NCBI GenBank assembly: GCA_943736015.1
Contig: OX031068.1
Span: 27,970,296-28,034,295, forward strand
DNA length: 64,000 bases
Reading direction: 5' to 3'
Source: Tridacna crocea
Lineage: Eukaryota; Mollusca; Bivalvia; Cardiida; Cardiidae
In this document: piece after piece, positions 1 through 64,000 of the stretch
Position numbering within the stretch: the stretch's first letter is position 1
How the letters are laid out: the number at the start of each line of letters is the position of its first letter
Notes under the pieces: generated by a model
Told to the model about the DNA's origin: nothing
The model's input: only the letters and a program-made list of their open reading frames with translations
Databases searched by the model: none
Made by a program: the position numbers and the translations under genes

Positions 1-202
1 GATTGGGCACTAAATGTAAATCGGGTACGGCACACGCTGAATCGGTAGATTAGACACAGGATGCTTTGTCAGTATACGCGAGGCGACTTCCCGATTTTTT
101 CAGGCAACTTGGACTTCACTTTACTTGGCAAAATGAGCGAAGTTTTTTGAAATCAGGCGACTTCTTCGCCCAAGTCGCCCAATTGGCCGAGGCCTGTAGA
201 AT

Positions 203-399
203 GATCGAAATTGAAAGCACTTGCAGACGACAAAATAAACATAATTAAAAGATTGAAATATGTTTCCAGCAGAGTAGAAGACACTGTGGGAAAAGGAGAA
301 AAATGCTGGTTACCAGCATTTTCTCCTTTTCCCACAAAGTTTTCAAAAGTCATCTTTTCCAGGGCCGTAAAAACCAGGGATTGTTTGGTAAAAGGTTAA
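203..399 (-). mobile_element. TH MITE, outer end truncated
   Basis: The hairpin and the GGTAAAAGGTTAA end are intact. The opposite terminus is missing: the copy begins at the internal 'attgaaagcacttgcagac' segment. Confidence 0.7.
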
Positions 400-423
400 A
401 TTAGGACTCTATATTTAAAAAGT

Positions 424-460
424 ATTGCCATCTCTGATTGGCTAAACCAATTAAAAGGTG
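424..460. mobile_element. F fold-back fragment
   Basis: Only the CTGATTGGCTAAACCA centre of one arm is left, about 35 bp. The rest of 400-613 shows nothing I recognise. Confidence 0.4.
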
Positions 461-613
461 CATAACTTTCAAAGTTAGCCATGCAAAGATTTTTTGCAAA
501 CTGATGTTGAACCAAACTTTCTCGGTCCAAGATTTTGAGATTTTTAAATCCGCAGGATTTGGAAATTAATGAAAAAAAATCCTAAGATTTAACAACCGTG
601 GAAATGATGACAG

Positions 614-2003
614 TTTTTAGCTCACCTGAGCACAAAGTGCTCATGGTGAGCTTTTGTGATCGCCCAGTGTCCGTCGTTCGTCATCCATCGTCCACAATTT
701 CTTTAAACATCTTCTTCTCCCAAACCACCTGGCCAATCTTGATGAAACTTGGCAGGGATGTTCCTCGGGTGAAGTTCAATAGATTGAATTCCAGCCATGG
801 CAACCGAAAGGAAAAAAATAGCAAAATCTTTGAAAATCTGCTTCTCTGAAACTAGAAGGCGCAGAGCTTTGATATGTGGTATGTAGTATTTCCTAGTGGA
901 CCTCTACCAAGATTGTTCATATGATGCCCCTGAGGTCAAAACTGGTCCCGCCCCGAGGGTCACAAGTTTGAAACATAGGAACAAAGAAGGAAAACTTTAA
1001 AATTCTTCTTCTTTGAAATTTGAAGGTGCAGAGCTTTGATATTTATTATGTATTATCTCCTAGTTGACCTCAACCAAGATTGTTCATATGATGCCCCTGG
1101 GGTCAAAACTGGCCCCTCCCCGAGGGTCACAAGTTTGAAAGATAGGAACAAAGAAGGAAAACTTTAAAAATCTTCTTCTCTGAAACTAGAAGGTGCAGAG
1201 CTTTGATATTTGGTGTGTAGCATCCCTTAGTGGACCTCTACCAAGATTGTTCATATGATGCCCATGGGGTCAAAACTGGCCCCAGCCTCGGGGATCACAA
1301 GTTTGAAACATAGGAACAAAGAAGGAAAACTTTAAAAATCTTCTTCTCTGAAACTAGAAGGTGCAGAGCTTTGATATATGGTATGTAGTATCTCCTAGTG
1401 GACCTCTACCAAGATTGTTCATATGATGCCCCTGAGGTCAAAACTGGCCCCGCCCCGAGGGTCACAAGTTTGAAACATAGGAACAAAGAAGGAAAACTTT
1501 AAAATTCTTCTTCTTTGAAACTTGAAGGGGCAGAGCTTTGATATTTATTATGTATTTTCTCCTAGTTGACCTCAACCAAGATTGCTCATATGATGCCCCT
1601 GGGGTCAAAACTGATCCCACCCCGGGGGTCACAAGTTTTAAAGATAAGAACAAAGAAGGAAAACTTTAAAAATCTTCTTCTCTGAAACTAGAAGGAGTAG
1701 AGCTTTGATTTTTGGTATGAAGCATCTGCGGGTTGCCTCTACCGAATTTGTTCACATGATGTCCCTGGTGTCCAAACTGGCCCAGCCTTGGGGTTCACAA
1801 GTTCAAAACATAGGAACAAGGAAGGAAAACTTTAAAAATAATTTTCTCTGGAACTGGAAATGGTAGAGCTTTGATATTTCATTATGTGGACCTCTACCAA
1901 ATACGATACGATAATCTTTTCGGAAAAGAAGAATTTTCATTGTAGACCTTTACTGCTTAGTACTCAGGTGAGTGATATAGGACCATCATGGTCCTCTTGT
2001 TTA
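614..2003 (+). mobile_element. PEARL element, CTCACCTGAG end type
   Basis: Non-autonomous element. The left end is TTTTTAGCTCACCTGAGC, followed by a GTCCGTCGTTCG stretch. The right end is CTCAGGTGAG, then a small hairpin (GGACCATCATGGTCC) and CTCTTGTTTA. The left and right ten bases are complementary. The interior is a tandem array. No transposase is encoded. The plan matches bivalve pearl repeats and Helentron-associated elements, which insert between T residues; the family assignment is inference. Confidence 0.75.
838..1850 (+). repeat. ~167 bp tandem core with trimeric order
   Basis: Six units begin near 841, 1009, 1174, 1344, 1509 and 1676, with a degraded seventh near 1844. Units 1 and 4 read 'aaactagaag...gtggacctctacc', units 2 and 5 read 'gaa(a)tttgaag...gttgacctcaacc', and units 3 and 6 are a third variant. 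The array is therefore two copies of a ~503 bp trimer. Confidence 0.75.
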
Positions 2004-2141
2004 AAGATAAACAGGAGAAAATGGTGAGAAGCAGTTTTTTCTTGTTAACCCACAATTTCTTGTGTTTCATCAGAGGCAAACCTGATGATTGGTGCCTATA
2101 TTCAAAATGGTGAATGCAATTTTTTTCAAATTTGTCAAGTC

Positions 2142-2358
2142 TTAATCCTTTACCAAACTGTCCCTGGTTTTCATGGCCCTGAAGAAGAAACCTTTTGCAT
2201 TTGCATTCTCAGTAAATGAGTAAATGCTGGTAACATTTTCTTCTTTTCTCGCAATATTTTTTATACTCCCAGAACAAATTTCAATTTTGAGTCACATTAA
2301 TTTTGTCACTTGCAAATGCTTTCAGTTTGGCAGTCTAAAATTTTGCAGTTTAGTTGAA
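2142..2358 (+). mobile_element. TH MITE, old copy
   Basis: Both flanks are readable, but the left hairpin arm is replaced by unrelated 'catttgcattctcag' sequence. The 3' terminal TTAA is lost. Confidence 0.6.
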
Positions 2359-2478
2359 TGTTGTCTGTATAGTGTTGAAAAAGGAGAAATGGTGGCAACT
2401 GGCGCTTTCTCCGTTTCTTTCCATTTAAAGACAGATGCCATTGATTAATGTAGAATAGATTTTATTCATTTGATAAGA

Positions 2479-2612
2479 TTTCTGAAAGGGTTGAAAATAT
2501 TGTGGAAATAGGAGGAAATGCTTGTTAGCAGTATTTCTTCTCTTTTCCCATGATAGTTTTAAAAGCCCTCTCCCCAGGGGTCCTTAAACTATGGGTTTGA
2601 TAGAGGGATAAT
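2479..2612 (-). mobile_element. TH MITE, partial
   Basis: The hairpin and right flank remain; a further hairpin fragment lies at about 2370-2420. Confidence 0.5.
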
Positions 2613-2790
2613 ACAAAAGCCTTATTTATGCAGATGAATGTCACACAGCCTATTTTCTTTCTGGCCCTGTAAGCGATATTTTTTCGATACATCAGGAGAA
2701 ATCATTTCTTATTTTGACTGGTTGACTGCACAATTACATTTTGTGAGTATTCTCGTCTCTCTGGTAAAGAACCAGTCCAATTGCATTTTG

Positions 2791-3006
2791 TTAACTCTAC
2801 CAAACGAAAGACATTTATGCAGGTCCAAATTGAAAGCTTTTGCAGATGACAAAATAAACGTAAGTCAAAAATTGGAAGTTGTTTCCAGCAGGATAGAAAA
2901 CAATGTGGGAAAAGGAGAAAATGCTGGTTCTCCTTTTCCCTCAGTATTTTCAAAAGGCTTCTATCTTGGGGTCTGCACAGGCAGGGATTGTGTGGTAGTG
3001 GGTTAA
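2791..3006 (-). mobile_element. TH MITE, complete ends
   Basis: Starts TTAACTCTACCAAACGA and ends GTAGTGGGTTAA. The hairpin tip is shortened: 'aatgctggttctcc' replaces the full AATGCTGGTTACCAGCATT turn. Element A abuts its right TTAA directly. Confidence 0.8.
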
Positions 3007-4918
3007 AGGTGGCCCCTCAGATTTTGGGACAAACATTTTAGAAGAATACAAAAAAAATCATCGTTATGCTCCATAAGCCTTAAAATTTTCATCCATGAGA
3101 CCCTAGTAGTCGAAAACGTCTGACAACAAGAGAAATTAGAGATTTACCACAGCCCAGGTCGACACCGACGCGAAACATGGTCTATTTTTACATGAGCAAC
3201 TCGCTCATTTGCATACCAGAAATATACATATAAAGCTTTAAATATAGGGTCCGAAGAAGACCTTATGGAAAATAATGACATGCTTATTATGTTATGGAAT
3301 TTCAGTCATTAGTCACATGCCAGTCACTTAACATTTCCATCATGCTTTTTAGCTCACCTGAGCACAACGTGCTCAAGGGGAGCTTTTAGGGTCACTGGGT
3401 GTCCGTCGTTCGTCGTGCGTCGTCAACAATTCTTTAAACATCAACTCCTCCTAAACCGCTGGGCCAATTTGGACCAAACTTGGCAGGAATGTTCCTTGGG
3501 AGGTCCTCTTTAAAAATTGTTCACAGAATTTGATTCCGTCAAAAACTCTGGTTGCCATGGCAACCAAATGGAATTTTTTAGCAAATTCTTTAAAAATCTT
3601 CTCCTCTGAAACCGCTGATCGGATTTTGAAATAATTTCACAGATATGTTCCTTGTGTGACCCTTTTCAAAAACTGAACATGAAATTTTGATCCGTCAAAA
3701 ATTGTGGCTCTGGTGAATGGGGGCTACTTGCTCTATATAGAAGTGAAGGAATTCTTAAAAAATCTTCTTCTCTGAAACCGCTGGTCAGATTTTGAAATAA
3801 TTTCACAGATATGTTCCTTGGATGACCCTTTTCGAAATTGTTCGTGAAATTTTGATCCGTCAAAAAATGTGGCTCTGGTGAATGGGGGCTACTTGCACTA
3901 TACAGCAATGAAGGATTTCTTAAAAAATCTTCTTCTCTGAAACCGCTGGTCAGATTTTGAAATAATTTCACAGAATTGTTCCTTGGGTGACCCTTTTCAA
4001 AAAATGTTCGCAAAATTTTGATCCGTCAAGAAACATGGCTCTGGTGAATGGGGGCTACTTGCACTATAGGGAAATGAAGAAATTCTTAAAAATTCTTCTT
4101 CTCTGAAACGGCTGGACAGATTTTGAAATGATTTCACAGAGATGATCATTTGGTGACCTTTTTCAAAAACTGTTCACAAAATTTTGATCGGTCAAGAAAC
4201 AGGGCTCTGGTGAATGGGGGCTACTTGCACTATATGGAAATGAAGAAATTCTTGAAAATTCTTTTTCTCTGAAACCCCTTGTCAGATTTTAAAATAATTT
4301 GACACAGATGTTCCTTGGGTGATCCTTGCTCTTGTGAATGGTAGCTACTTGCACTATATGGACATGATGAATTTCTTGAAAATTCTCTTTCTCTGAAACC
4401 CCTGGTCAGATTTTAAAAGAAATTTTCCGAAATGTTCCTTGGAAGACCCTTTTCAAAACTTGTTTGTAAATTTTGATCCATTCAGAAACATGGCTCTCGT
4501 GGATGGGGGATACTTGCTCTTATACAGAAATGAAGAATTCTTAAAAATTCTTCTCTTTGAAAGTGATGGTCAGATTTTGAAATGAATTTTACAGGTGATC
4601 TTTTGAAAATTGCTTAGCAAAATTATAAATTTGGTTCCAATGTTTCAATGCCAAAAAAAAAAAATAGGCTATGGTCATCTCAAAAATTCAGGTGAGCGAT
4701 CCAGGGCCATCTCGGCCCTCTTGTTTATTTTTTGGTGGGAAATCTAAAAATAGCATAAGAGGCTACGTAGCCTTTTAAGGGAATACCATCGAAATATTTT
4801 TTTTGCAATTTTATGATTCTGAATTATTGATGATTTCTATTGTGTTTTCATATAAATTTTAAGGATATATATATTTCTTAATTTGGTGGGATATGAAAAT
4901 TCTACATACCCACCTTTA
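3006..4918 (-). mobile_element. Element A, split by a PEARL insertion
   Basis: The ends are AAGGTGG and CCACCTT. The two parts (3006-3345 and 4728-4918) align to the reverse complement of the uninterrupted copy at 59639-60174. That copy gives the empty site and shows that the PEARL element at 3346 arrived later. No coding capacity is seen. Confidence 0.75.
3346..4727 (+). mobile_element. PEARL element, CTCACCTGAG end type
   Basis: Shares both ends with the copy at 614, including TTTTTAGCTCACCTGAGC, TTCAGGTGAGC and GGCCATCTCGGCCCTCTTGTTTA. The core is unrelated: units of ~166 bp start 'ctctgaaaccgctggtcag' near 3603, 3770, 3934, 4101, 4267, 4391 and 4553. One unit is shortened to about 124 bp. 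Confidence 0.75.
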
Positions 4919-5172
4919 CACAGTAATATTCATACTGAGCAATGATCTCTCCCTTCAAAGGAGATATTTGAGGATAAATTGGAATTAAACTTTTCTTTGC
5001 AATGGAAAATGACAGACTTTTATAGAATATTAAAGAAATCATGATTTTTTTTGGGACTTCCTGTGAAATGATTCAGAATTAAAATACAACAAACTTCAGT
5101 AGTATTTACTGACTATTACTTTTGTGAAAATTGTCTGATCAGGGAAAAAGAACTTTTTTCCTGTAGTAGCCA

Positions 5173-5207
5173 CCTGGGCCCCTAACTTAAAAAATCCAGG
5201 GGCCCAG
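5173..5207. repeat. GC-rich hairpin
   Basis: CTGGGCCCCT and AGGGGCCCAG form a perfect ten-pair stem with a 15-nt loop in an AT-rich stretch. A third partial copy, 'ctaggggctcag', follows. Confidence 0.6.
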
Positions 5208-5257
5208 CCCAAAATCTAGGGGCTCAGCTTACCGTTTAGTATGGCAAAATTTTTCCC

Positions 5258-5468
5258 CTTTTCATGGTATCGGCAAGGACAACTCGCCCCAAAGACAATT
5301 CGCCCCGACACGTTTGGGGTGAGAATTTTGGTAACCAATGGACTTGAGCGAGTTGTCATTTGAATTATGGGCCAGTCTTTCCAATCTATGGTGAGTCCAA
5401 TTTTATTTTTAGTTTTAGCGAGTTGTGTTTAGTTTCGGGCGAGTTGTCCATAATTCTCAGTGAGATGC
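5258..5468. repeat. GGACAACTCGCCC fold-back
   Basis: The left side carries 'ggacaactcgcccc' and 'gacaattcgcccc'. The right side carries the opposite words 'gcgagttgt' and 'gggcgagttgtcc'. The plan resembles the minisatellite fold-back at 43875-44435, with other words. Confidence 0.5.
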
Positions 5469-5538
5469 ACGCGCGGTAATTGAGAACCAGCCAAATGCGA
5501 GTAAACATCTGGTAAAAAAGAATACCGTAAATGATACA

Positions 5539-5614
5539 TTATTATTTTGTAGTCTGCAAAATAATGCTTTCAACTTGGACTAGTCTAAAATTTTGTCGTT
5601 TAGTAAAGAGTTAA
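5539..5614 (+). mobile_element. TH MITE, right quarter
   Basis: Only 'attttgtagtctgcaaaat' through the GTAAAGAGTTAA terminus survives. Confidence 0.55.
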
Positions 5615-5671
5615 AATCTTGTAAATTACTCTGGAATTTTGATATATTTCTGGCCAATTTTAGTGCTCAAG

Positions 5672-5860
5672 ATGAGGTGCAGTGATCGTTCTGTGTCCAT
5701 CCTCCATTGTTCATTGTCTGGCTTGCCTTGTCTGTCATCAGGGTGTCAACAGCAGCCTTGTTTGCACTGTGGGATCCTCATTTCTATGCCACTACACATG
5801 AAACTTGGTCAGAATGTTTGTCTTGATAAAATCTCACACTTCTTTGAAATTGGGTACTGA
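5672..5860 (+). mobile_element. Degraded PEARL left portion
   Basis: 'gatcgttctgtgtccatcc' and 'catgaaacttggtcagaatg' match the sub-left segment of the PEARL copies at 614 and 3346. Neither terminus is visible, and 5861-6120 holds nothing recognised. Confidence 0.4.
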
Positions 5861-6123
5861 CATTCTTGAAAATCTTACAAAAACCATGTGTGCACTCTTG
5901 AGACCATAATTATTTTGGATTTGTATGTATCAGTTATACTTTCTGCATTGTTGCAGTTTTATAAGCACAAAGAAAGCTAGATTGAACACTGAAACTCCAA
6001 CCCAATAAAACCTTTTTAGTTCAATATGGAGGGAAATAGATAAAAGTAACTTCATCATTACAGAACTCCAGATAAGCGGGAGTGATGGAATGACGGAATT
6101 CTTAGCCCATTATTTCTCTTCCA

Positions 6124-6196
6124 AACCCAATGTTATGGGTACTCATTAGAATTGTCTTGATGAGACAATTCTAATGAGTACTCATAACATAGGGTT
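6124..6196. repeat. Near-perfect palindrome
   Basis: Two arms of about 33 nt flank a 5-7 nt loop. The inner arms are ACTCATTAGAATTGTC and GACAATTCTAATGAGT; the outermost bases are AAACCC and GGGTTT. Confidence 0.75.
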
Positions 6197-6217
6197 TAGC
6201 GGAGAATGAGTGATATT

Positions 6218-6480: not shown

Positions 6481-6722
6481 GATTCTGTGACAAAGACCTG
6501 TATTTGTCCCAAGGAGCTGGTGGGGGGTATAATAATGTTTTGCGATAGCTCTAGTTTCAATTTTGAAATAAAAATCACACTCTCTATCTGGAGCTCAGCC
6601 ATTAGTTGCCCAAGAATGGGCCTGCAGAGGCCCACCAAATATATGCTAGTCCACATTTTTGACAAATTGCTATTCACTTACGCGAATAATTTATATCAGT
6701 ACCAAGAAGCATGTACTTATCC

Positions 6723-11302: not shown

Positions 11303-12384
11303 TGCCCCCCTTCGAAGAAGTGGGGGTATATTGCTTTGCACTTGTCGTTCCATCGGTCCGTCGGTCCATCGGTCCGTCGGTCCGTCCGTATACCACATTT
11401 TTGTCCGGAGCATAACACAAAAAGTATTTCAGGTATCATCTTGAAACTACATAGGTGGATAGATCTCATTCAGGAGAAGTGCAATGCACAAGAATCATAA
11501 CTCTGCCCATCATATTTATGGAGTTATTGCCCTTTGTTGATTTTCATACTTAATTTTTGTCCAGAGCATAACTCTAAAAGTATTTCAGGTATCATCTTGA
11601 AACCTCATGGGTAGATAGATCTCATTAAGGAGAAGTGCAGTGCACAAGTACCATAACTCTGCCCATCATATTTTTGGAGTTATTGCCCTTTGTTGATTTT
11701 CACACTTAATTTTTGTCCAGAGCATAACTCTAAAAGTATTTCAGGTATCATCTTGAAACCTCTTAGGTGGATAGATCTCATGAAGGAGAAGTGCAGTGTA
11801 CAAGAACCATAAATCTGCCCATCATATTTTTGGAGTTAGTGCCCTTTTTTGATTTTCATACTTAATTTTTGTCCAGAGCATAACTCAAAAAGTATTTCAG
11901 GTATCACCTTGAAACCTCATAGGTGGATTAACCTTATTAAGGAGAAGTATAGTGCACAAGAATCATAACTCTGCCCATCATATTTTTGGAGTAATTGCCC
12001 TTTGTTGATTTTCATACTTAATTTTTGTCCGGAGCATAACTCAAAAAGTATTTCAGGTATCACCTTGAAACCTCATAGGTGGATTAATCTTATACTGGAA
12101 AAGTGCAGTGCACAAGAACCATAACTCTGCCCATCATAATTTTTTTCCAGAGCATAACTAAAAAAGTATGTGAGGTAAAATCATGAAACTTAAAAAAGTT
12201 GATAGCTCACATAAATGGGAAGTGCAGTGCCCAAGAATTGTTTATTTATCAATAATACTTTTTGAGTAATTACCCTTTGTTCGTTTTTACACTTTGAACT
12301 TAACACTTTATAATCACATGTCATATTTAGAATTGGATGCCATTAGGGGGACATACAGTCCTGTTTTACAAAGATCTCTTGTTT
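11302..12384 (+). mobile_element. PEARL-like element, CCCCC end type
   Basis: The left end TATGCCCCCC is followed by a GTCCGTCGGTCC microsatellite. Five ~156 bp units start 'ttttgtcc(a/g)gagcataac' near 11399, 11556, 11711, 11868 and 12024. The right end contains TTAGGGGGACATACAG and finishes TCTCTTGTTT. The C-run and G-run are the complementary end pair. Confidence 0.75.
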
Positions 12385-14268: not shown

Positions 14269-14497
14269 TTAACCCATTACCACACAATCCCTACTTTTGA
14301 CGCCCCTGAGAAAGAAGCATTTAGAAAACATTGTGGGAAAAGGAGAAAATGCTGGTAACCAGCATTTTCTCCTTTTCCCACAATGTTTTATACCCTTCAC
14401 AAAACAAATTTCAAATCTTCAGTCGCTTTTATTTTGTCATCTGCAAATGCTTTCAATTTGGACCAGTCTAAAATATTGTTGTTTGGTAATGGGTTAA
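14269..14497 (+). mobile_element. TH MITE, near-consensus copy
   Basis: TTAACCCATTACCACAC to GGTAATGGGTTAA. The hairpin is perfect apart from the base pair next to 'gaaaac' and the single central A. A TH start (minus) shares its right TTAA and runs to about 14558. Confidence 0.9.
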
Positions 14498-14603
14498 GTC
14501 TTTACGAAATGACAGCAGTCTGGCAACTGGGTCAAATGGAAAGTAATTGCAGATGACAATAATAATTATTATAATTTGTCTTTACCAAACAGTCCCAATT
14601 TTA

Positions 14604-18932: not shown

Positions 18933-19159
18933 TTAACCCACTACCACACAATCCCTACTTTTGATGACCCTGAGAAAGAAGCCTATTGAGAACATTATGG
19001 GAAAAGGAGAAAATGCTAGTAACCAGCATTTTCTCCTTTTCCCACAATGTTTTCTACCCTTTACAGAACAAATTTCAAATTTGAAGTCACTTTTATTTTG
19101 TCGTCAGCAAATGCTTCCGATTTAGAAAACCTAAAATATTGTAGTTTTGTAATGAGTTA
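18933..19159 (+). mobile_element. TH MITE, complete
   Basis: TTAACCCACTACCACAC to TTTGTAATGAGTTA; abuts the next copy, which runs the other way. Confidence 0.85.
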
Positions 19160-19390
19160 TCTCTTTACCACACGACAAAATTTTAGGCTGGTTCAAATTG
19201 AAAACATTTAATTTGCAGACGACAAAATAAAGGTGAGTGAAAAATTGAAATTTATTCTGGGAAGGGTAGAAAATACTGTGGGAAAAGGAGAAAATGCTGG
19301 TTACCAGCATTTTCTCCTTTTCCTACAGTGTTTTCAAAAGGCTTCTTTCTCAGGGGCGTCAAAAGTAGGGGTTGTGTGGTAATAGGTTAA
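19156..19390 (-). mobile_element. TH MITE with paired arm change
   Basis: The stem base is ACTGTGGG facing CCTACAGT instead of the usual ATTG/CAAT, so both arms changed. It carries the 'gaaaacatttaatttgcag' variant with an internal TTAA. Confidence 0.85.
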
Positions 19391-22298: not shown

Positions 22299-22525
22299 TT
22301 AACCCTTTGCCAAACAGCAAAATTTTAGACATATCCAAATTGAAAGCATTTGCAGACGACAATTTCAAAGTGGCTCAAATAGTGCAATTTTGCTTTGATA
22401 GGATAGAAAACTTTGTGGGAAAAGGAGAAAATGCTGGTTACCAGCACTTTCTCCTTTTCTCAATGTTTTCAAAAGGCTTCTTCCTCAGGGGCGTTAAAAG
22501 GTGTCATTGTGTGGTAAAGGGTTAA
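22299..22525 (-). mobile_element. TH MITE, complete ends
   Basis: TTAACCCTTTGCCAAACAG to GGTAAAGGGTTAA. Carries the 'acaatttcaaagtggctcaaatagtgcaa' type of arm, shared with 31371. Confidence 0.85.
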
Positions 22526-25516: not shown

Positions 25517-25745
25517 TTAACTCATTACCAAACGACAATATTTTAGGCTTGACCAAATTGAAAGCACTTGCAGACGACAAAATGAAAGTGACTGAAAATT
25601 TGAAATTTGTTATGGAAATGGTAGAAAACATTGTGGGAAAAGGAGAAAATGCTGGTTACCAGCATTTTCTCCTTTTCCCACAGTGTTTTCTAAAGGCTTC
25701 TTTCTAAGGGTGGTCAAAAGTAGGGATTGTGTGGTAATGGGTTAA
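25517..25745 (-). mobile_element. TH MITE, half-changed stem
   Basis: The left base is CATTGTGGG and the right base CCCACAGTG. One arm carries the change seen on both arms at 28190, leaving a G-T pair. The 265 bp before it hold only a 'gttttcttcttcttttgct' remnant. Confidence 0.85.
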
Positions 25746-26017: not shown

Positions 26018-26450
26018 AAAAAGCAGTAAAAATATTTTTTGATCTTACATTGGTACCACCAGTGAAAATACCGATTTCCATGTTCTTGTTGCCTAGGTTA
26101 ATTGCGTGTGCCTCACAACCAGTTGGGTCTGAACTATGACGTCATTTACCTTACATTTCTCGCACTTGACATAATATTGTAATGCTTTGCTTTGTGGGAG
26201 GGTTACACCATGGGGAATAAAGGAAAAGAATTGTAATGGACTTTGATACAGCTCCTCCCAGAAAGGGTTAAAAGCATGAAATAAATAGAATACACATTTG
26301 TTTTTTTTTTTCAGTGAAAGATCGAAATTTATTTCATCTCGTGAACACCAGCGGTAATATTTTCACTTGTGGCTGCACCACTTGTGAAAATATTACTGAT
26401 GATGTCCATTCTATGAAATAAATTTCGATCTTTCACGGAAAAAAACAAAT
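26018..26450 (+). mobile_element. Element D, copy 1
   Basis: About 410 bp, with matching copies at 42228 and 53838. The internal inverted pair is GTGAAAGATCGAAATTTATT and AATAAATTTCGATCTTTCAC. It contains TGACGTCA, a cyclic-AMP-response-element octamer (about 26139). No ORF. Confidence 0.7.
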
Positions 26451-28134: not shown

Positions 28135-28363
28135 TTAACCCATTACCACACAATCCCTACTTTTGACGCCCCTGAGAAAGAAGCCTTTTGAAAACACTGT
28201 GGGAAAAGGAGAAAATGCTGGTAACCAGCATTTTCTCCTTTTCCCACAGTGTTTTCTACCCTTCCCAGAACAAATTTCAATTTTTCAGTCACCTTTATTT
28301 TGTCATCTGCAAATGCTTTCAATTTGGACCGGTCTAAAATTTTCTCGTGTGGTAAAGAGTTAA
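28135..28363 (+). mobile_element. TH MITE, perfect hairpin with paired change
   Basis: The stem 28190-28256 is two perfectly complementary 33-nt arms around a single A. Its base reads CACTG/CAGTG where most copies have CATTG/CAATG, so both arms carry the change. Confidence 0.9.
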
Positions 28364-46200: not shown

Positions 46201-49200
46201 CTTGGTTGAACTTATAAATATGCAAGTTTTGTTTTCTTGTAAGTTTCCTTCACTTTGAGATGACAAAATTTTAGACTGGGTCATACTGATAGTATCTGAC
46301 TGAAATGTCATGGGAATCAAATGTATCTGCAAGATTACAAATCATTGCAGGAAAGGAAAAAATGCTTTCAATCATTATTTTGTATTCTTGCAATGTTTTC
46401 CCAAGCTGTCACTCCAATGGTTTGGCTTAAAAAACATTATGTATACAATATTAAGGTTATTTTCTTTTATGTTAACCCTATACCTAACAATCAAGCGTCT
46501 CATTGACCTTTAGAAAGATGGCTTTTGAAAACATTTGAAACAAAAAAATTCTTTTATCCATTCCTGTGCAAGGGTTCTGAAGTACCTTGCTGAAGGACAT
46601 TCCTATGCTAAACCCAGTGCTTTCTGTAAGGCTGGAACCCATGGCCTCTAGGTTACAATTTTGACACTTTACCACAGAGCTTACAGTTTCCAATTACCTC
46701 TTTACAACATAGTTCTGGGTTTTAACCCTTTCCCAAACGGCAAATTTTAGACTCCTCCAAACTCAAAGAGTTTGCAGACGACAATTTCAAATTCGATAAA
46801 AATGGCAGAAAATTCTCCAAATGGGTAGAAAACACTGTAGGAAAAGGAGAAATTGCTCGTTGTGAGCAATTTCTCCTTTTCCCTCAGTGTTTTCAAAAGA
46901 CTTGTACTGCAGACACATAAAAACAAGGGCTTGTTTGGCAAAGGATTAACAACCCCAAGAAGAATGTCTCTTTTGAAAACATTACAGGAAAAGGACTTCC
47001 TTTTTCCCACATTATAACCCATACCACATGATCCCTACTTTTGACGACCCTGGGAAAGAAGCCTATAGAAAACATTATGGGAGAAGGAGAAAATGCTGGT
47101 AACCAGCATTTTCCCCTTTTCCCACATTATATTTTCTACTCTTCACAAATAAATTTCAAATTTTCAGTCACTTTTACTTTGTCGTCTGCAAAATGCTTTT
47201 GATTTGGACAACATTGTCGATTTGTAATGAGTTGTAACTTTTAAAGTTTTTAGAGACAAATATTGACATTTGAACAGCATTTAAATGATCATCTGCAAGT
47301 CCTGTAGATTTGGTTGGTTGTATTGGGGTTTTACGCCACTTCAACAGCTAAGGTCATATCATGGCGGTTGATGACGCACATGTGTTTCCTGGCTTTCTCA
47401 CACAGGTACCTACACTACTTTCTTTCCAAAGCCATTGACTACTTTTCTCACATGCTTCAGCAGAGGTGAGAGGTGAAAATACGCCAGACAGTTCGCCTCA
47501 ACCAGGTATCGAACTCACAACCACCAGGTCATGAGTCCGACACACTCACCACTGAGCCACCCGGGCGGGCCTGTAGATTTGGACAAGTCTAATAGTTAAC
47601 TCTTAATCAAACGACAAAATTTTGAACTAGACCAAATTGAAAGCACTTGTAGACAACACTTTAAATCTGAATCAACTTGAAGGGTAGAAAACATTGTGGG
47701 AAAAGGAGAAAATGCTGGTTACCAGCATTTTCTCCTTTTCCCACAAAGTTTTCCATAGGCTTCTTTTTCAGGGTGGTTTAAAGCAAGGATTGCTTGGTAA
47801 AGTGTTAATCAATCATCTGCAAGTACTGTCAATCTGGATATGTATAAAATTTTATTGTTGGTAAATCTGATGTTTTATATAATGACCCTGATAGAGAAAG
47901 TTTTTGAAATCATAATTTACTGTTGGAGGAGTTAACCAAACAAGTTTACAGGGCCCATATTCACCAACCATTCTGAAGAATGTTCCCTGTCTTATTCTCC
48001 ATGATTGTCCAAGTTTGAAAGTAACACAGCTTCTGATTGGCTAAACCATAATTGGTTTAGCCAATTAGAAATTGTGTTACTTTCACATATTGAAGAATGT
48101 TTATAAGAACGGTTGGTCACAGAATACGAGCTGGTCTATACATACAAGTTGGCTTCTGTAAAGAAAAAAGCCAGGAGAGGTCAGCATCAATGTTTTCAAA
48201 TAGTTTATTGGCTTTCAATTTCAATATATTTTGGTACATGTAAGCAAACGAGTTAATAAGCTGCCACGCAGAAACCTCATATGCTTTACATGATGGTAAT
48301 TTGACTTTCCTGTCGCGTTTTCAAGTTGCATGTTCTTGTCCAGTAGTTTTCTTTCTCTTTTTTAAGGAAATTCTTATTTTTTCTTCTGATTGGAATATTT
48401 GCTTGATAAAAAAAACTACAATTATTTGAGAGGTTATTTGCAGCCATGGCAAATTACTAAATTAAATCTTTACTGAAATTTGTCATTTATAAAAATAAAC
48501 CATGACTTAATGTCCTGTTCCGGTTTTTAGCTCCACTGGCCGAAGGCCAGCGGGCTTATGTCATGGCCCGTTGTCCGTCGTGCGTGCGTCCGTCCGTCTG
48601 TGCGTGCGTGCGTCCGTGCGTGCGTTAACTTTTATTTCAAACATCTTCTTCTCTGAAACTACCCATCCAATTTTGATGAAACTTCACAGAAATGATCCTG
48701 CCATGGTCCTCTTCAGAATTCCTTGAAAGAATTTTATTCCTTCAAAAACTCTGGTTGCCATGGCAACAAAACTGAAAAGTATTGAAAATTTTTAAAAATC
48801 TTCTTCTCTGAAACCATAAGGCCTAGGGCTACCAAATTTGGCATGTAGCTTTATCTAGTGGACCTCTACCAAGTTCCTTCAAATAATAGCCCTGGGGTCA
48901 AAATTGGCCCCACCCCGGGGGTCACAAGTTTTATATGGGCTTATATAGGGAAAACTTTAAAATCCTTCTAATACCTAGCCATAGGGCCTAGGGCTACCAA
49001 ATTTGGCATGTAGCTTTATCTAGTAGACCTCTACCCAGGGTGCCCAAATGATAGCCCAGAGGTCAAATTTGGCCCGGCCCCAGGGGTCACAAGTTTTATA
49101 TGGGCTTATATAGTGAAAACTTTAAAAATCTTTTCGTACCAAGCCATAAGGCCTAGGGCTACCAAATTTTGCATTTAGCTTTATCTAGTGGGCCTCTACC

Positions 49201-52200
49201 AGGAGGGCCCAAATTATAGCCTTAGGGTCAAGTTTGTCCCCACATCAGGGGTCACAAGTTTTACATGGGCTTTTGTGGTGAAAACTTTCTAAGTCATCTT
49301 GTTACTAACCATAATAAAGACTAGGACCACTAAATTTAGCCTTGTCTCATGGATTTTATGTTTTACAGGGCCTTTTATTGAAAATTTGAAAATCTTCTTG
49401 TTTATAACCACACATTCTAGACCTGTATTATTTAGTCTGGGGCTTTATCTTGTAGACCTCCACTAGGATTCAAGTAATTATAGCTTTGTGGTCAAAATTG
49501 GACTTGCCTAGGGGTCACAACTTTTTTGTAGGTTTTTATGGAAAAAAATTGTATGCCCTCAAGTTTGAAAGCAGTTTGCCAAATAATGTAATGTTTGCCT
49601 TGTAGTGTTTTTACGAATTAGCCAGTGGAGCGATACAGGGCCATGATGGCCCTCTTGTTTTATTTCGCTTTATTTACAAAACCATGACAAAACAGACTGT
49701 GTATCAGAACAAGTAAGCTGGAAGAAATAGAATTAGACAGCAAATTCTGTTGCAGTCTGCCTTTTAAACTCACCACTGTTGGAGAGGTCTGATGACCTCT
49801 CCAATGAGCATGTCAAGGAAATTGACAGCTCTTGGCTATATTTGTCTTGGAAAAAGAATTAGAAAACACTGTTGAAATAAGAGAAAAATGCTCATTAGCA
49901 GCATTTTTAGCTCCACTGGCCGAAGGCCAGCGGGCTTATGTCATGGCCCGTTGTCCGTCGTGCGTCCGTCCGTCCGTTAACTTTTTCTTTAAACATCTTC
50001 TTCTCTGAAACTACCCATCCAATTTTGATGAAACTTCACAGAAATGATCCTGTCATGGTCCTCTTCAGAATTTCTTGAAAGAATTTAATTCCTTCAAAAA
50101 CTCTGGTTGCCATGGCAACAAAACTGAAAAATTTTAAAAATCTTTGAAAATCTTCTTGTCTGAAACCGTAAGGCCTAGGGCTACCAAATTTTGCATGTAG
50201 CTTTATCTAGTGGACCTCTACCAAATTTCTTCAAATTATAGCCCTGGGGTCAAAATTGGCCCCGCCCCGGGGGTCACAAGTTTTACATGGGCTTAGAGAG
50301 AACTTTAAAATTCCTCTTCTACCTAGGCATAGGGCCTAGGGCTACCAAATTTGGCATGTAGTTTTATCTAGTAGACCTCTTCCAACAGTGTCCAAATTAT
50401 GGCCCGGGGGTCAAAATTGGCCCCGCCCCGGGGGTCACAAGTTTTACATGGGCTTATATAGGGAGAACTTTAAAATTCTTCTTCCACCTAGCCATAGGGC
50501 CTAGGACTACCAAATTTGTCATGTAGCTTTATCTAGTGGACCTCTACAAAGGATGTCCAAATTATAGCCCTGGGGTAAAATTTGGCCCGGCCCGGGGGGG
50601 TAACAAATTTTACATGGGCTTATATAGGGAAACTTTAATAATCTACTTGTACCTAGTTGCAAGGGTTAGGGCTATCAAATTTTGCATGTAGCTTTATCTA
50701 GGGGGTCTCTACCAAAGGGTGCCCAAATTATAGGCCCGGGGTCAAATTTAGCCCTGTCACAGGGGGTCACAAGTTTTACATGGGCTTATATAGGGAAACT
50801 TTAATAATCTACTCGTACATAGCCATAAGGCCTAGGGCTACCAAATTTTGCGTGTAGCTTTATCTTATGGGCCTCTACCAAGAGGGCCCAAATTTTAACC
50901 TTGGGGGTCAAGTTTGACCCCACCCCAGGGGTCACAAGTTTTACATTGGCTTTTACAGTGAAAACTTGATAAACCTGTCTCATGGGTCACATATTTTAGA
51001 GGGCCTTTTATTGAGCAAACTTGTTTTACAGGGCTTTTTATTGGGCAAGATTAAGAAATCTTCTTGTATATAAACACACATTCTAGTTTCATATTGTAGG
51101 TCTGGGGTCAAAATTGCCTCCATTCAGGGATCACAAGTTTAACATGGGCTTAAAAATAGAGTCACTTCAATTTAAACATTTATCAAGGGAAATAACTCTT
51201 TTTATGAAAGATAAAGTTTGGTACTATTTACTTCCCTTGATTATCAAACTGCTTTGATACATGATTGGTGCTAGATATTAAGTTTTTGATAGAAAATGTT
51301 CTATTTTCAAGGAGTGTGATTCATTTTGATGCTAATAGTTATGCTCACATGAGGTGAATAATAAATTCAGAGTAAGGTTTCTATCATTCAGCTTATTTTT
51401 CCAAGGATTTTACCTTTCATGCCAATGAATTAATCTACTTGTATTGCCTGACAGTGTTCATTGTTTTTGAAGGCCCTCTTTTTCATGGTCATGAACACTT
51501 CAGTTTGTGTGGTAAAGGGTTAAAAAGCCAGTGGAGCGATACAGGGCCATCATGGCCCTCTTGTTTACTTTTCCTTTAATACTATACAAGACGACAAAAT
51601 TTTCGACTGTTCAAAATTGAAACCATAAACAGAAGACATAATTCAAGTGACTCAAAAATTGAAATTTCTTTTGGGAAGGGTAGAAAACATTGTGAGAAAA
51701 GGAGAAAGTACTGGTTACCAGCATTTTCTCACAATGTGAAACCCAGGGATTGCTTGGTAAAGAGTTGATAGTTTCAAAAGTTCTTTACTCTAGGATTGTT
51801 TAAAAATTATGTAATTACATAAAAGAAGCAAAAAACATTAAATTACTGTGTAAGTGGAAATTTTTGTGACATTGTAAATTTTTGCGATTTTGCAAATTTG
51901 AAATATTAGCAAAAATTTCTGTTTGCTTATTTTACTACACCGGTATGAGTATCTCAATTTTACAAACATTTTCATGCACAAAATGTTGGAAATTGGCAAT
52001 TTGCAATTTGCAGTTTTTTGGATTATGACACATGTAGGTGTATCCACAAACACAATAAGTGGGATTCAAAATTCTGAATGACGAATCAATACAAACACTA
52101 ACAAAGAAATATTTACCAGGAAAGACCATCCATTGATGTTAATTCAATCATCAATCCATAAAATACCTTATAAGAATAACAGATTTTTATGTACTGACAT

Positions 52201-55200: not shown

Positions 55201-58200
55201 CGTTTTCTTGTGTGATCAAAAAGCAGAAAATAGCAATAAAACGTTTTACCAAACAATCCCGTGTGTTTACTCATAAGGTGAAAAGGCCGACTCGCTGACC
55301 TTTTGCAGAAAGTGTAGATCAAAATCAGACTGCACAGAATGTGAAGATACTTTTCTCTAAGAAATAAGTTTGAAATAACATCTATTATTTGGGTTATAAC
55401 TCTTGGCTTTTTAACTTTTTACCTCAATCCTGAGGTAAAGCCCTTTGAAAACATTGTTGGGATTGGAGAAAATCCTGGTAACAAGTGTTTTCTCCTATAT
55501 TCCCACAATGTACCTTTTTATGAACAAATTACATTTTGATACATACTTATTTTTTGTACAGAAGCTTTCATTTTAAACTTCTATGAAAATTTTGTCTTGT
55601 AGTAAGATATTAACCCATTATCACACATTATCGCGACTTTTGATGACCCTGGGAAAGAAGCCTATTGAAAACATTGAGGGAAAAGGAGAAAATGCTGGTA
55701 ACAAGCATTTTCTCCTTTTCCCACAATGTTTTTTACCCTTCCAAAATAAAAATTCAATGATTTTGTTATTATTTTGTTGTCTGCAAATGCTTTCATGTCG
55801 GACTAGTCCAACATTTTGTCATTTGGTAAAGAGTTAAGTTTACTGAGATTGGTATATTCTACTATAAATTTCACTCCAATCTGCCAAATCCCTGTAACTT
55901 AGTCCATAGCATACAGGACTAGAGAACAGACTAGCAACATTGCTGGTTTGATTTTCATCTTTGCCAATTTCTTTCTGCGAATTGATGATAGTCATTGAGA
56001 CAAAATTCAATTATTTCTCGTAATCATTCAGACAAAATTCAATTATTTCTCACAGCTGACCATTGTTTAGACAGTGGCTATTTGGAAAAGCAGCCAGTGG
56101 CTTGGAAATGATATTTTGCAGAGTACTGTTAAAAGAAACTCCAGGAAAGCATGGATAGATTGGACAGTGATTGAACTAAAATCATGTTGAAAATGGTGCT
56201 AAACACCATACAATCAATTAACCCTTTACCAAACAATGCCTGGTTTTTACGACCCTGAGCATGGATAGATTGGACAGTGGTAGAACTGAAATCATGTTGA
56301 AAATGGTGCTAAACGCCATACAATCAATTAACCCTTTACCAAACAATGCCTGGTTTTTATGACCCTGAGATAGATGCTTTTTGAAAAAATTGTTGGAAAA
56401 GGAGAAAATGCTGGTTACCAGTATTTTCTCATTTTCCCACAATGTTTTCTGCCCTCCTGGAAACAAATTTCAATGTTCGGATTATGTTTATTTTGCAATC
56501 TGCAAATTAATGCTTTCAGTTTACACAAGTCTAAAATTTTGTTATGTTTGGTCAAAGTTAACTCTTTACCAAACAACAAAAAATTGGACTGGTCCAAATT
56601 CAAAGGATTTGCAGATGACACAACTGTTAAATAATGATTTTTGTCTTGAATGGGGAAGAAAACATTCTGGGAAAAGGAGAAAATGCTGGTACCAGTACTT
56701 TCTCCTTTTTCCACAATGTATTTAAAATGTTTCTTTTACAGAGGTGTTATACGAGTCATGATCGTGTGGTAGAGAGCTAACCCATTACCAGACAATCCCT
56801 ACTTTTGACGACCCTGGAAAAAAAGCCTTTTGAAAACATTGTGGGAAAAGGAGAAAATGCTGGTAACCAGCATTTTCTCCTTTTCCCACAATGTTTTCTA
56901 CCCTTCACAAAACCAATTTCAAATTTTCAGTCACTTTTATTTTGTCGTCTGCAAATGCTTTCAATTTGGACAAACCTAAAATATTGTCGTTTGGTAATGG
57001 GTTAAACCCCTGAATCTCTACATTATGTCCAAACATCCCCATTCTTACTGCTACCTTATTTTTCTTCTTTCAGGCTAAGGCATATGGCTCTGTACTCTGG
57101 GAGAAGGTCGTGGGACATCTGAACCTCCTGGAAGCGGACTATTTTGATCTCGAGTATAAGGATTCCAAAGGCCTAAAGGTATATATAATGACGGCTGTGT
57201 GCTCAGTATTGTTTGTACTACATAATAATTGATGCTTTCCATCTTTTTACCCTTCTAATGCCATGGGTAAAATTGGGCTTTTAAGTCTTTACCAAATGAC
57301 AAAAGTATAGACTGGTCCAAATTGAAAGCATTTACAGATGACAAAATAAAGGTTACTGAAAAAATGAAATTTAGTTTTTCAAAAGGTTAGAAAACACTGT
57401 GGTAAAAGGAGAAAATGCTTTCTCACAGGGGCTCATCACATGACCTTGTGCTGAAGGGAGAATTGGAAAATTAAACGAGACTTACCTGTAAGTTGAATTT
57501 CAATTCTCAGAAGCACAAGGTCACAGTGATGAGCTTATGCTCCCACCCGTTTTACCCACCCTTTCTCCACAATGTTTGTCAAAGCTTTTATCTCCAGGGT
57601 TGTTAAAATACAGGATTGTGTGGTTTAGATTGGAGACCAAACATCCCAATACCAGTGTTTACCTTTTACTAAACAACAAAATTTCAGACTGGTCCAAATT
57701 AAAAGCATTAATTTTGCAGATGACAATTAATGCCAATCAAAAATTGAAATTTGTTCTTGGAGGCTAGAAAACGTGGGAAAAGTAGAAAATGCTGGTTACC
57801 AGCATTTTCTCCTTTTCCCACAATGTTTTCAAAAGGTGTCTTTCTCAGGGTCATGAGAACCAGTTATTGCTTTGTTAAGGGTTAAATTATGTTCAACTTC
57901 CAGAAACACTCTGTAAGCTATCATTATTATGGTGTTTGCCATTAATCAATGACATTCTAGGGCTCCTTATTTCTTTACCGATGGATAGAATTCCACACAT
58001 TATCTAAAGTGAAAATGTTTGCAGACAAAAAAATAAACATGTCTTAAATTATAAGATTTGCTTTTGAACGGATAGAAAACATTGTTGGAAAGGGAAATGA
58101 TGCCACTTAACCCATTAACACACAATCTCCACTTTTGACGACCCTGAGAAAGAAGCCTTTAGAAAGCATTGTGGGTAAAGGAGAAAATGCTGGTAACCAG

Positions 58201-61200
58201 CATTTTCTCCTTTTCCCACAATGTTTTCTATTCTTCACAAAAACAAATTTCATATTTTCAGTCAGTTTCATTTTGTCATCTGCAAATAGACAAGCCTAAA
58301 ACATTGTCGTTTGGTAATGAGTTAATAGAATTTTCACAATTTCTAACAATGTTTTCAAAAGCTTTCTTCCCCAAGGTCGTTAATATTTTGAATGATGCTG
58401 TAAAGGGTTAACCTCTTACCCTCATTCAAGAGCCCCTTTTAACTTCTGGAAAATTCCTTATTTGACCCATCCCTCTAGTAAATGCTACACTAACGTTGAT
58501 CTAACTGAAAGTGGACTGAGCTCATGGTCAATCTGTCAAGTTAAAAGAATTTACTTGAAAACAAATTGATATTACTAAACTGATATAAATGATAATACAA
58601 ATCTACATCTTCAGCTTTGCTTTGGAAGCTGTCAAACAAGAGGAGTCCAAATGTCCTGACCAATCAGTCTAAGAGACAAAAAGAGAAAACTTAAAACCGA
58701 TCTTGATGAATTGAAAATTGAAGTTGATAAAAAACCAAGTCTTGCTATTTCAGAGGCAATTTTTTTACAGGGAAACATGCTTGTCAATCAGTGTAGATGA
58801 AAAATCTGCATTCTATGCAGTCTGATCTTGATCTACACTGTCTTAGCAGCGTAAGTGTGGAGGAAAGAAAAACACTTTTTTTTATAATTTGAATTATTAA
58901 AATACATGTATTACATTATTACAAGAAGCAGTAACTTTAGATAAACAAACTATGTCATCATGGCCCTATAAATTACAGTAATTCTTTTACACAGAAAAAC
59001 TTGAAAATTATTGCGAACTTTCTTGTAGAATTGGCTGGACAGGGAAAAGGCCATTATGAAGCAGTTGCCATTTGCTGATGCTGAAATTCAATTTTTGGTC
59101 AAGTTTTATACGCCAGACCCAGCTCTGTTAGAGGAAGAGTTAACAAGGTTAGTTTTGTGTTTACCCTTATGTTGGATTGCCAAACAATCCAGGCAAACAA
59201 ACCATTTGAAAACAGTGTTGGAAAGTGAGAAAATGCTGTAACCAGCATTTTTGTCCTTTTCCCAAGATGTTTTTATCCTTTTAGCTCCAAATGCCATCAT
59301 TTCAGCCGTATTTGCAGATGCTTTCAGTTCGGACCGGTCTAAATATGTGATTTGATAAAGGGCTTAACAACGCCTTGGACAGTTCTATAATGTATTTGTA
59401 GTCTAATTCTCAAGAATTTTGGAATTTTCAAAACATATGTTTTCTGATTGGTTTATCCAATCAGGAATTGTTATACTTCTTGAGAGTTTGACTTAGCGTG
59501 GTATTGAGAATGGCTGGTGAACACAATATTCCTATGCTTTATCATCCAGTCCAAGGTTATATTACCTTAGTTACTGCTAACTTAACCATGGTCTATATTC
59601 ACCAACCATTCTTAAAAACATTCTTTGTCTTGTTCTTTAAAGGTGGGTATTTAGAATTTTTACATCTCACCAAATTAAAAAATATATATATCACTGAAAT
59701 TCATTTGAAAAAATAATTCAAATCATCAATAATTAAGATTCATAAAATTACAAAAAAAAAATTGTTGGTATTCCCTTAAAAGGCTATGTAGCCTCTTAAG
59801 CTATTTTTAGATTTCGCGCCTAAAATCAATAAAGCATTGTGGGAATATCAAGTGACTTGCACGTGACTTATAACGCTTAAATTCCCTATCATAACAAACA
59901 TGTAATAATTATTTTCCATTATGTCTTCTTTGGACCCTATATTTGAAGCTTCTTTTGTGTATTCCTGTAAGTAAATGAACGAATTGATCATCTAAAAATA
60001 GAATGTGTCTCCTGTTGTTGTCAACCTGGGCCGTAGTAAATCTCAAATATCTCAAGTTGTCGGACGGATTTCGACTACTGGGGTTTTATGAATGAAAATT
60101 TAAAGGAGTATAAGGATGATTATTTTTGCAATTTTGTAAAATTTTCGTCCCAAAATCTGAAGGGCCACCTTTAAGATTATATAACTGTGAAAGTAACAGA
60201 ACTTCTGATTGGCTAAACCATTTGGTTTAGCCAATCAGAAGTTTTGTTACTTTTACACTGACAAAATTCTGAAGAATAAGCCTTAGAATGTTCTTAAGAA
60301 TTGTTTGTGAATAGGGACCCAGATGACACAATTTAAGACTGGTCCAAATTCAAATCATTTGCAGATGACAATTCTTTCCCAAATGATTGGATATGTATAG
60401 GAAAGAGTGAAAACATCATTGGGAAAGAGGAAATCACCTAGTGACCAGTTTTTCTCATGTGCCCCACAATATTTTCAAGAGCCTTCTTTCTCAAGGTCCT
60501 TAGAATTCAGGACTGTGTGGTATAGATTTAACTCTGTAACAAATGATTGTGTAGTATTCAAAGAGTTTTCAGATGACAAGTTTATTCTTTGTCAAATGGT
60601 GGGATTTGTCTGAATTGATTGCTAATATTGTGGGAAAAGAGTAATATGCTGGTTACCAGAATGTTCTCCTTTTCCCTAAATGTTTTTAAAAGCTTTTTTT
60701 CACTAGGTCCAAAACTTGGGATTGTACGATAAAGGGTTAAAAGCAAATGATGTTATAGAGCATCATACGATGATTGAACCTAAGTTCATACTTAAGAATT
60801 AACCTTCCACATATTATGTTGACCCATAGAAAACACCTCAGAATTTTTTTAGAAAAAACTGGGGAAAAATGCAGGAGCTGGTCAATGATATAAGGGGAAA
60901 AAGTAGCTGTGTGTTAATTATAATGTCTTGTAGCTAGAAACAGGGTAATCGTATTTAAGGGGTTTTCCCTGGTCACTTTACCCAAACAAAATGGCTGAAT
61001 AATTGATGAGGTTTCACATGTTGATTGCTTTATATCTGTCAGAATTATTGCCAGGATTTGTTACAGCCCATCTATTGTAGGAAATTAATTCTGTACCAGA
61101 GGAAAAAACATTAGAGTTTAACATATTGAAACTATTTGCAGACAATACATTAATTGTAGAAAACATTATGGGAAAACAAGACAAGGCTAGTAACTAGCAT

Positions 61201-63128: not shown

Positions 63129-63150
63129 GTAAGTAAAATAAAACCCACTA

Positions 63151-63378
63151 TTAACCCTATACCAAACGACAAAATTTTAGACTGGTTCAAATTGAAAGCA
63201 CTTGCAGACGATAAAATATACGAAACTCAAAAATTGAAATTTGTTTCCAGCAGGCTAGAAAACATTGTGGGAAAAGGAGAAAATGCTGGTTACCAGCATT
63301 TTCTCCTTTTCCCAAAATGTTTTCAAAAGGCTTCTATGTTAGTGTCATAAAAACCAGGGACTGTTCGTAAAGGGTTAA
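63151..63378 (-). mobile_element. TH MITE
   Basis: TTAACCCTATACCAAACGAC to CGTAAAGGGTTAA, 22 bp after the exon 5 donor. One stem mismatch. 63379-63747 is unrecognised; a partial minus copy with shortened tip lies at 63748-63920. Confidence 0.88.
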
Positions 63379-64000
63379 GACCACCCATGGTACTTTTGAA
63401 AACTTGCCTATTTGGCAGGATGGTATGATTTCTGAGGGTTACCTATTGATGAGGTGAAAGAAAGAAAGGCTTACCACATGTTGACTTGACTCATTATGAA
63501 ATAAACTGTGTGCACAGTATATTATTTTATGAAAGGAAGCTTGCATGCACATAAAAATGATAGCTGAAGAATTTTCGCATGCACTGTACAAATCTGGGGG
63601 TTCTTGATTTTATCAACAACTGTAAATTATTGATTCAAAATTGTCCAAGCTTTTACGCATCATGATGCTTGTTCATTAGAACAAAATAAAAACATACAGT
63701 TTACCAAGTTCTTAAACATATTTAGTTGTTCTTTTTCATTTTAAAAAAAATTGAACCAGACTAAATAAAAAGAACTTGCAGACTACAAACAAAGTGTGGC
63801 TCAAATGATTTTAATTGTTTCTGAAAGGTTAGAAAACATTGTGGGACAAGGAGAAAATGCATTTCCTCCTTTTCTCCCCATGTTTTCAAAAGTCCTATTT
63901 ACCAGGGTGATTAAAACTGGATAAGATAGATGCCAATTATTCTAAAGCCTGATGTTTTACACTTTTTCTTTTTGCTTGAAATTTTCTACTGTTAGTAACT

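Follow-up and report, generated by a model that had tools for sequence, protein, structure and literature searches.

Abundance, probable transposase partner and conserved palindrome of a piggyBac-type MITE in the genome of Tridacna crocea

The window analysed here, a stretch of 64,000 bases of Tridacna crocea DNA (G000:C13:27970296-28034295 of an assembly of 1,048,827,098 bases), is in large part made of copies of one short element with TTAA ends and an internal palindrome. The locus raises the questions of what kind of element this is, whether its density belongs to the locus or to the genome, which transposase moved it, and what the palindrome contributes. A profile of 231 positions, built from the window's own copies, gives 138 matches at E ≤ 1e-2 with a mutual overlap of at most half. 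Among the 138, 125 reach E ≤ 1e-5, 94 hold the hairpin and 51 are full length (model position ≤5 to ≥222). At E ≤ 1e-3 the matches cover 22,313 of the 64,000 bases, or 34.9%, a value slightly favoured by the training of the profile on the window. The reversed window gives no match, and a first-order Markov sequence gives one of 82 bases. An earlier note, made from the sequence alone, had described about a third of the window as roughly a hundred copies of a unit of about 225 bp with a 67-nt hairpin placed off centre, and all of this holds. The consensus measures 229 bp including both TTAAs, with about 221 bp between them, and the hairpin occupies element positions 56 to 122 of 229.

The boundaries were studied in 128 full copies, 51 from the window and 77 from 20 genome samples, which were divided by a left-end rule into a young set of 43 and an old set of the other 85. 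Conservation in their alignment stops right after the TTAA on either side, and 72 of the 128 have an exact TTAA at both ends (counted by script). The TTAA ends of the earlier note are confirmed, as is TTAACCC as the commoner left form (CTC occurs in 14 of 58 scorable copies); its right form GGGTTAA, found in 21 of 66 scorable copies, gives way to the more frequent GAGTTAA (45). The element is short, occurs in high copy number, carries terminal inverted repeats and is too short for a transposase, as expected of a MITE, and both ends show the TTAA target-site duplication of the piggyBac superfamily. Counted by eye in the young consensus, 11 of the 13 bases next to the TTAA are the same at the two ends. 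The superfamily is further defined by terminal inverted repeats of 12–19 bp with a CC[C/T]T motif (PMC2872659); the older left form CCCTTTACC fits this motif, the right end begins with CTC, and the young form has CCCA/CTCA. The proposal of a piggyBac-type MITE, i.e., a non-autonomous DNA transposon, is supported by the TTAA-bounded copies, by paralogous empty TTAA sites and by the presence in this genome of a transposase-bearing element whose ends match. Selected copies and sites are listed in Table 1.

Table 1. MITE copies, their parts and empty insertion sites in the 64,000-base window.
Feature	Positions	Strand	Basis or remark
Type copy, full-length 229-bp young-form MITE, TTAA to TTAA inclusive	28135..28363	+	Best window profile match, E 1.8e-75
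Type-copy left end, TTAACCCATTACC and subterminal CTTTTGACGCCCCT	28135..28173	+	In register with left end of the piggyBac partner
Type-copy 67-nt palindrome (hairpin), off centre	28190..28256	+	Sequence; consensus positions 56-122; consensus DNA fold
Type-copy right end TGGTAAAGAGTTAA (young consensus TGGTAATGAGTTAA)	28350..28363	+	
Full-length MITE, young-form left end	14270..14499	+	Profile coordinates; left TTAA starts one base outside
Full-length MITE, right TTAA decayed to TTAT	18934..19161	+	Right end overlaps opposite-orientation copy 19155-19389 (-)
Full-length MITE with left end CCCTTTACC	22299..22524	-	Profile search
Full-length MITE, young-form ends	25517..25744	-	Profile search
Three adjoining full-length MITEs	56329..57005	+, -, +	56329-56562 (+), 56556-56779 (-), 56778-57005 (+, CTAA in place of left TTAA); profile search
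Full-length MITE, left end CCCTTTACG	63151..63377	-	Profile search
Empty paralogous site of the MITE at L025:8934-9162	59721..59839	+	89.5% to joined flanks, one TTAA at joint
Second empty paralogous site of the same insertion	4729..4835	-	89.1%, one TTAA at joint

Other repeats are found in the window as well. Tandem arrays with a period of about 165–167 bp lie at 824-1879, 3583-4327, 48814-49288 and 50172-50963, and one with a period of 156 bp at 11397-12144. At 26265, 42480 and 54100 (minus), a common TTTCATGCTTTTAACCCTTTCTGGGAGGA is accompanied by the same bases outside the TTAA; these sites represent a different repeat that merely resembles the MITE end. A 110-bp unit duplicated in tandem at 56148-56369 (95% matches) includes a MITE left end (56218, 56328). 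None of the Rfam families reaches its gathering score in the window, and the MITE hairpin has no match in viral contigs. Six family-specific MITE strings of 15–17 bases were absent from the literature main texts searched, a search lying outside Repbase and Dfam, and no paper evidently on this family was among the matches listed in the literature searches.

The earlier note had also suggested counting the family genome-wide. In this genome, of which 18 chromosome-sized contigs make up all but 0.41 Mb, an 18-mer of the hairpin arm occurs exactly 603,657 times (301,811 + 301,846; reversed control 0). As one hairpin has at most two arms, this corresponds to at least 301,829 hairpins. A near-palindromic 35-mer of the hairpin centre is found exactly 83,529 + 83,973 times (reversed control 0), and the 34-base left end of the young MITE has 35,555 exact occurrences. 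Coverage was estimated from 20 samples of 10 kb at preset round coordinates (5 and 20 Mb) on C1–C17, with none on C18. They contain 184 matches, including 77 full copies, and are covered to 15.7% (E ≤ 1e-3; bootstrap interval 11.0–20.7%). The MITE is present in 19 of the 20, with coverage ranging from 0 to 35.9% and three samples at 34.6–35.9%. The samples hold 78 arm 18-mers compared with 115 expected from the genome count, and the direct value of 15.7% is therefore probably low; calibration by the arm count gives 23% (20–28%). Scaled from 200 kb, the 184 matches correspond to about 0.97 million copies and fragments, or about 1.4 million when calibrated. The MITE thus probably amounts to about a million copies and fragments and to roughly 16–23% of the genome of ~1.05 Gb. 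The view of the earlier note that the window reflects a burst of unusual local density is not borne out, as the window contains 43 arm 18-mers compared with 36.8 expected for 64 kb from the genome count, the three samples mentioned are equally dense, and the copies are not all of one age. Within its genome the window is unremarkable; it is the genome that is unusual.

Empty TTAA sites at paralogous loci, whose absence the earlier note had named as evidence against a piggyBac-type MITE, were found. The joined flanks of the MITE at L025:8934-9162 match three MITE-free places with one TTAA each, two of them in the window and the third at L016 (92.7% over 124 bases). This analysis included the 72 copies with an exact TTAA at both ends, skipping copies whose flank was shorter than 60 bases. 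A non-MITE match across the joint was obtained for six of the 72, with L025 as the clean case. The matches of L014:1987 (82%) and L018:378 (80%) also keep the TTAA, and those of L027:1830, L023:7829 and L024:5205 are relatives without an exact TTAA. In eight of the 72 copies the joined flanks match MITE sequence.

The piggyBac transposase domain has at least 118 scored matches genome-wide, and the surroundings or ends of 18 of these loci were fetched, covering 12 different frame sizes. An unbroken frame of 492 codons is present at five loci (C3, C5, C9, C10 and C15) with nearly equal domain scores. It belongs to an element of 7,195 bp, which lies at C5:7864466-7871668 with its TTAAs. Between the C5 and C9 copies, identity is 99.9% over 4.25 kb to the left and 1.85 kb to the right of the domain. 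At four of the five loci (C5, C10, C3 and C15), a TTAA and then differing flanks come after the right end; at C9 this TTAA is lacking. The left end is present at C3, C5, C9 and C15, and C10 has no left-end 26-mer within two mismatches; genome-wide, the left end occurs eight times (six exact, two with two mismatches). The intact frame encodes a protein of 486 aa from the first ATG, which matches Pfam DDE_Tnp_1_7 over 1–349 of 349 (E 2.6e-88) and, in the PDB, piggyBat (E 5.8e-40) and Trichoplusia ni piggyBac (E 4.8e-36). It aligns to the latter with aspartates at D268, D346 and D447, which are the catalytic residues of T. ni piggyBac (PMC7351741). The element also carries several MITE copies or fragments, the same in the C5 and C9 copies, and two adjoining full-length MITEs are located to the right of the transposase in both.

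The ends of this element resemble those of the MITE. The partner has the left end TTAACCCATTACCGTTCAATAACGCCTTTTGACGCCCCT and, read inward, the right end TTAACTCATTACCACTCAGAG, and the young MITE consensus has TTAACCCATTACCACACAATCCCTACTTTTGACGCCCCT and TTAACTCATTACCAAACGAC, respectively. Over the 38 bases after the TTAA, the left end of the partner is identical to the young MITE at 28 and to the old MITE at 24 positions. Six ends of four or five other piggyBac families in this genome reach 11–16 of 38 with either MITE left form, and the maximum among 3,138 non-MITE TTAA-site readings on both strands is 21. The 14-base motif CTTTTGACGCCCCT is located at position 26 in both MITE and partner, a score reached by none of 200 shuffles. 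The partner has two further occurrences, at 61 and at 95, the latter with one extra base, and this spacing in steps of 34–35 bases would be the usual look of transposase-binding repeats. For the right ends, the score was reached by one of 200 shuffles. The second base of the terminal repeat is C on the left and T on the right in both the MITE consensus and the partner, although this rule is loose in single MITE copies (left C 44, T 14, n = 58; right T 45, C 21, n = 66). The earlier note had suggested looking for a piggyBac transposase gene with the same first 16 bp. A transposase-bearing partner with matching ends does exist, but strict terminal identity is limited to 13–14 bases including the TTAA. 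The terminal 420 bases at either end of the partner contain nothing like the MITE hairpin or right interior; a simple internal deletion of the partner would therefore not have produced the MITE.

Other piggyBac families were considered as partners. Those with CCCTTTATATAC (624 aa), CCCTWGTCATGC (593/653 aa), CCCTTTCAGYGC (599 aa) and CCCATTTATGCCT (552 aa) were rejected, as they match at 11–16 of 38 bases and have little beyond the first letters in common with the MITE. The 624-aa element had seemed to be flanked by MITE halves at L030, but its copies elsewhere have other flanks, and at L030 it had inserted into a MITE. This 2.8-kb family has a 624-codon frame and ends TTAACCCTTTATATAC (L030 = G000:C18:30427700-30431300; L031–L034), and its domain matches score 303.3 bits on C18, C3 and C4 and 303.5 bits on C10. 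The copy on C18 is inserted in a MITE, and that on C4 directly adjoins one, the terminal TTAA being apparently common to both. Among further piggyBac loci, no clear terminal repeats were seen at L029, L043/44, L047/48 and L053/54, and one end each was seen at L039/40 and L051/52.

The copies differ in age. Median divergence from the consensus is 7.2% in the young set of 43 and 18.3% in the old set of 85, whose consensus ends are CCCTTTACC/CTCTTTACC. TTT at both ends of the old consensus is replaced by ATT in the young one, and ATT is also what the present partner has at either end. The ends of single copies agree in 25 of 32 scorable cases (A/A 17, T/T 8, A/T 6, T/A 1), the other 96 of the 128 copies being not scorable at one or both ends. 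The paired change looks like the tracking of a changing transposase. The closest pair among the 128 sampled full copies differs by 3.6%, so recent movement of the MITE is not demonstrated, though two partner copies are only about 0.1% apart.

From these sequence comparisons, the MITE was very probably moved in trans by a transposase from a piggyBac lineage that is represented today by the rare 7.2-kb element with its 486-aa transposase. Confidence is slightly reduced by two gaps among the five loci, the missing left end at C10 and the missing right TTAA at C9. The transposase would recognise the short asymmetric terminal repeats, CCCATTACC on the left and CTCATTACC on the right, together with one copy of the left subterminal motif that is repeated in the partner, and would cut the MITE out and insert it at TTAA. 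Either the present transposase or its ancestors may have acted in this way.

Two other origins of the copies have to be weighed against movement by this lineage. Expansion as tandem or satellite-like arrays instead of transposition is suggested by copies that sometimes adjoin (56329-57005) and by the many tandem arrays of the window. It is extremely improbable, given that the copies are dispersed in both orientations in the window and recur in 19 of 20 separate 10-kb samples, that Tandem Repeats Finder detects no window array with a period near 225–230, and that empty TTAA sites exist. A different, lost or unsampled TTAA-inserting transposase might have amplified the MITE, with the 7.2-kb element merely related by end ancestry. 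This transposase could come from another piggyBac family or from the Kolobok superfamily, which also makes TTAA duplications. Consistent with such an origin, the 85 of 128 full copies outside the young set are older and have consensus ends that are not found in the partner, eight partner left ends are few for about a million passengers, and several further piggyBac families with CCC- ends are present, surroundings or ends having been fetched at 18 of the at least 118 matches. On the other hand, the partner matches both MITE left forms better (28 and 24 of 38) than any of the six other ends (at most 16), the in-register subterminal motif ties the MITE to the 7.2-kb element, and the Kolobok end motif has purines first, which does not fit CCC...GAG. 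A different transposase is accordingly regarded as improbable, and the piggyBac lineage of the 7.2-kb element is retained as the probable source of mobility.

The palindrome is the least diverged part of the element. As DNA, the young consensus has a folding z of -9.3 relative to 200 shuffles, and divergence in the 128 copies is 8.8% in the hairpin compared with 18.7% in the left and 19.9% in the right part. Partial copies were left out of the variation tests, and four of the 128 full copies lack at least 30 of the 65 hairpin columns. In the young set, private and shared variants behave differently. The per-site frequency of private changes is similar in all three parts (hairpin 0.0138, left 0.0143, right 0.0186), whereas shared variants, present in at least three copies, are fewer in the hairpin (0.023) than on the left (0.041, ratio 0.57) or right (0.063, ratio 0.36). 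With 43 copies, the bootstrap intervals of hairpin and right part overlap at the edge only, those of hairpin and left part overlap broadly, and the choice of the young set by its left end lowers left-flank variation. Private counts in the old set are saturated and reversed (hairpin 0.0073, flanks 0.0034 and 0.0029), as they are in the combined set, so that only the young set is informative. A comparison of pairwise distances, in which the hairpin/flank ratio rises to 0.8 for the closest pairs, is biased by the choice of pairs by flank distance, and the private and shared variants were therefore relied on instead. The shortage of shared variants is indicative of constraint acting on the source elements and not of a slower decay of the copies, and the palindrome seems to be kept in amplifying lineages. 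At hairpin pair 67/119 of the alignment (0-based), 19 of the 128 copies, including the type copy at 28135, have changed to a complementary pair, as in a subfamily that kept its pairing.

Instead of selection, the lower variation could also reflect a side-effect, namely a low CpG content, gene conversion among copies or the ease with which the hairpin is aligned, and this explanation is given a substantial, though less than even, chance. The hairpin consensus contains no CpG, and flanking CpG sites are the most diverged (0.20–0.41). Nevertheless, the lower divergence of the hairpin persists for each of the four bases when CpG columns are removed. Mean divergence of the hairpin is about 0.4–0.5 of that of the right part in young and old sets alike, as an effect arising after insertion would give; the private and shared variants of the young set, despite their overlapping intervals, speak against it. 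Hairpin changes comprise 503 one-sided and 82 two-sided cases, compared with 37 two-sided cases expected by independence. Complementary double changes number 52, modestly more than the 30 non-complementary ones, and a single pair accounts for 19 of the 52. Correction between the hairpin arms was rejected as the cause of the low divergence, as this signal is too weak, and unbiased conversion between arms would not be expected to lower total divergence.

The palindrome may help amplification. It would represent a possible binding site for a dimer of the C-terminal cysteine-rich domain of the transposase, or an obstacle to replication. We tentatively suggest, as a possibility that is itself rather doubtful, that the 67-nt palindrome is a cis-acting amplifier that does not derive from the partner ends and raises transposition or copy gain, letting one MITE with few helper genes fill about a fifth of the genome. 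Such an amplifier might bind the dimeric cysteine-rich domain away from the tips, or might delay replication in such a way that copies lost by excision are recovered.

A share of about one fifth of a one-gigabase genome is, to our knowledge, the largest for a single MITE family. With eight copies of the left end of the candidate helper and probably about a million MITEs, the genome represents an extreme natural experiment in the escape of a MITE from copy-number control. As the ends, an intact transposase frame and a conserved palindrome are in hand, the question of how a MITE outruns its helper is directly testable. In this lineage, the MITE can be expected to dominate repeat masking, small-RNA mapping and assembly.

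The MITE is an extreme case of a known kind of element, remarkable for its abundance and its conserved palindrome. The CMITEs of Acropora corals are similar MITEs of the piggyBac type with ends of the CC[C/T]T type and duplicated TTAA, have a piggyBac-like partner, AmiPB1, with identical terminal inverted repeats and weak internal similarity, and are known from an allele without the element (PMC2872659). They differ in that the text available for them has no mention of a hairpin, gives about 70 copies (CMITE-IN) and describes tandem arrays (PMC2872659). The excerpted text of a study on bivalve MITEs describes no TTAA/hairpin family of such size, its MITEs being not classified further (PMC10294476). 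The partner transposase resembles T. ni piggyBac and Myotis lucifugus piggyBat in its related protein, its cysteine-rich C-terminus and its TTAA target (PMC7351741, PMC11707139). Asymmetric ends with subterminal motifs are likewise shared with both systems, in which palindromic sites are bound by cysteine-rich domains (PMC7351741, PMC11707139). In T. ni piggyBac, these domains bind a 19-bp palindromic repeat as a dimer (PMC7351741); the left end of piggyBat contains imperfect palindromes (PMC11707139). These palindromes measure 14–19 bp and lie in the transposon ends (PMC7351741, PMC11707139), whereas that of the MITE comprises 67 nt, lies mid-element and is absent from the partner ends. As short, non-coding DNA transposons with high copy number, plant MITEs are also comparable (PMC12550479, PMC6200218). 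In the excerpted account of 207 plant genomes, the largest MITE total for a single genome, summed over all families, is 368,869 copies, and the highest content mentioned is 6.04%, in rice (PMC12550479); the wheat family Thalos has 42,321 copies (PMC6200218). Against these plant values (PMC12550479, PMC6200218), a single family accounts here for about a million copies and roughly 16–23% of the genome.
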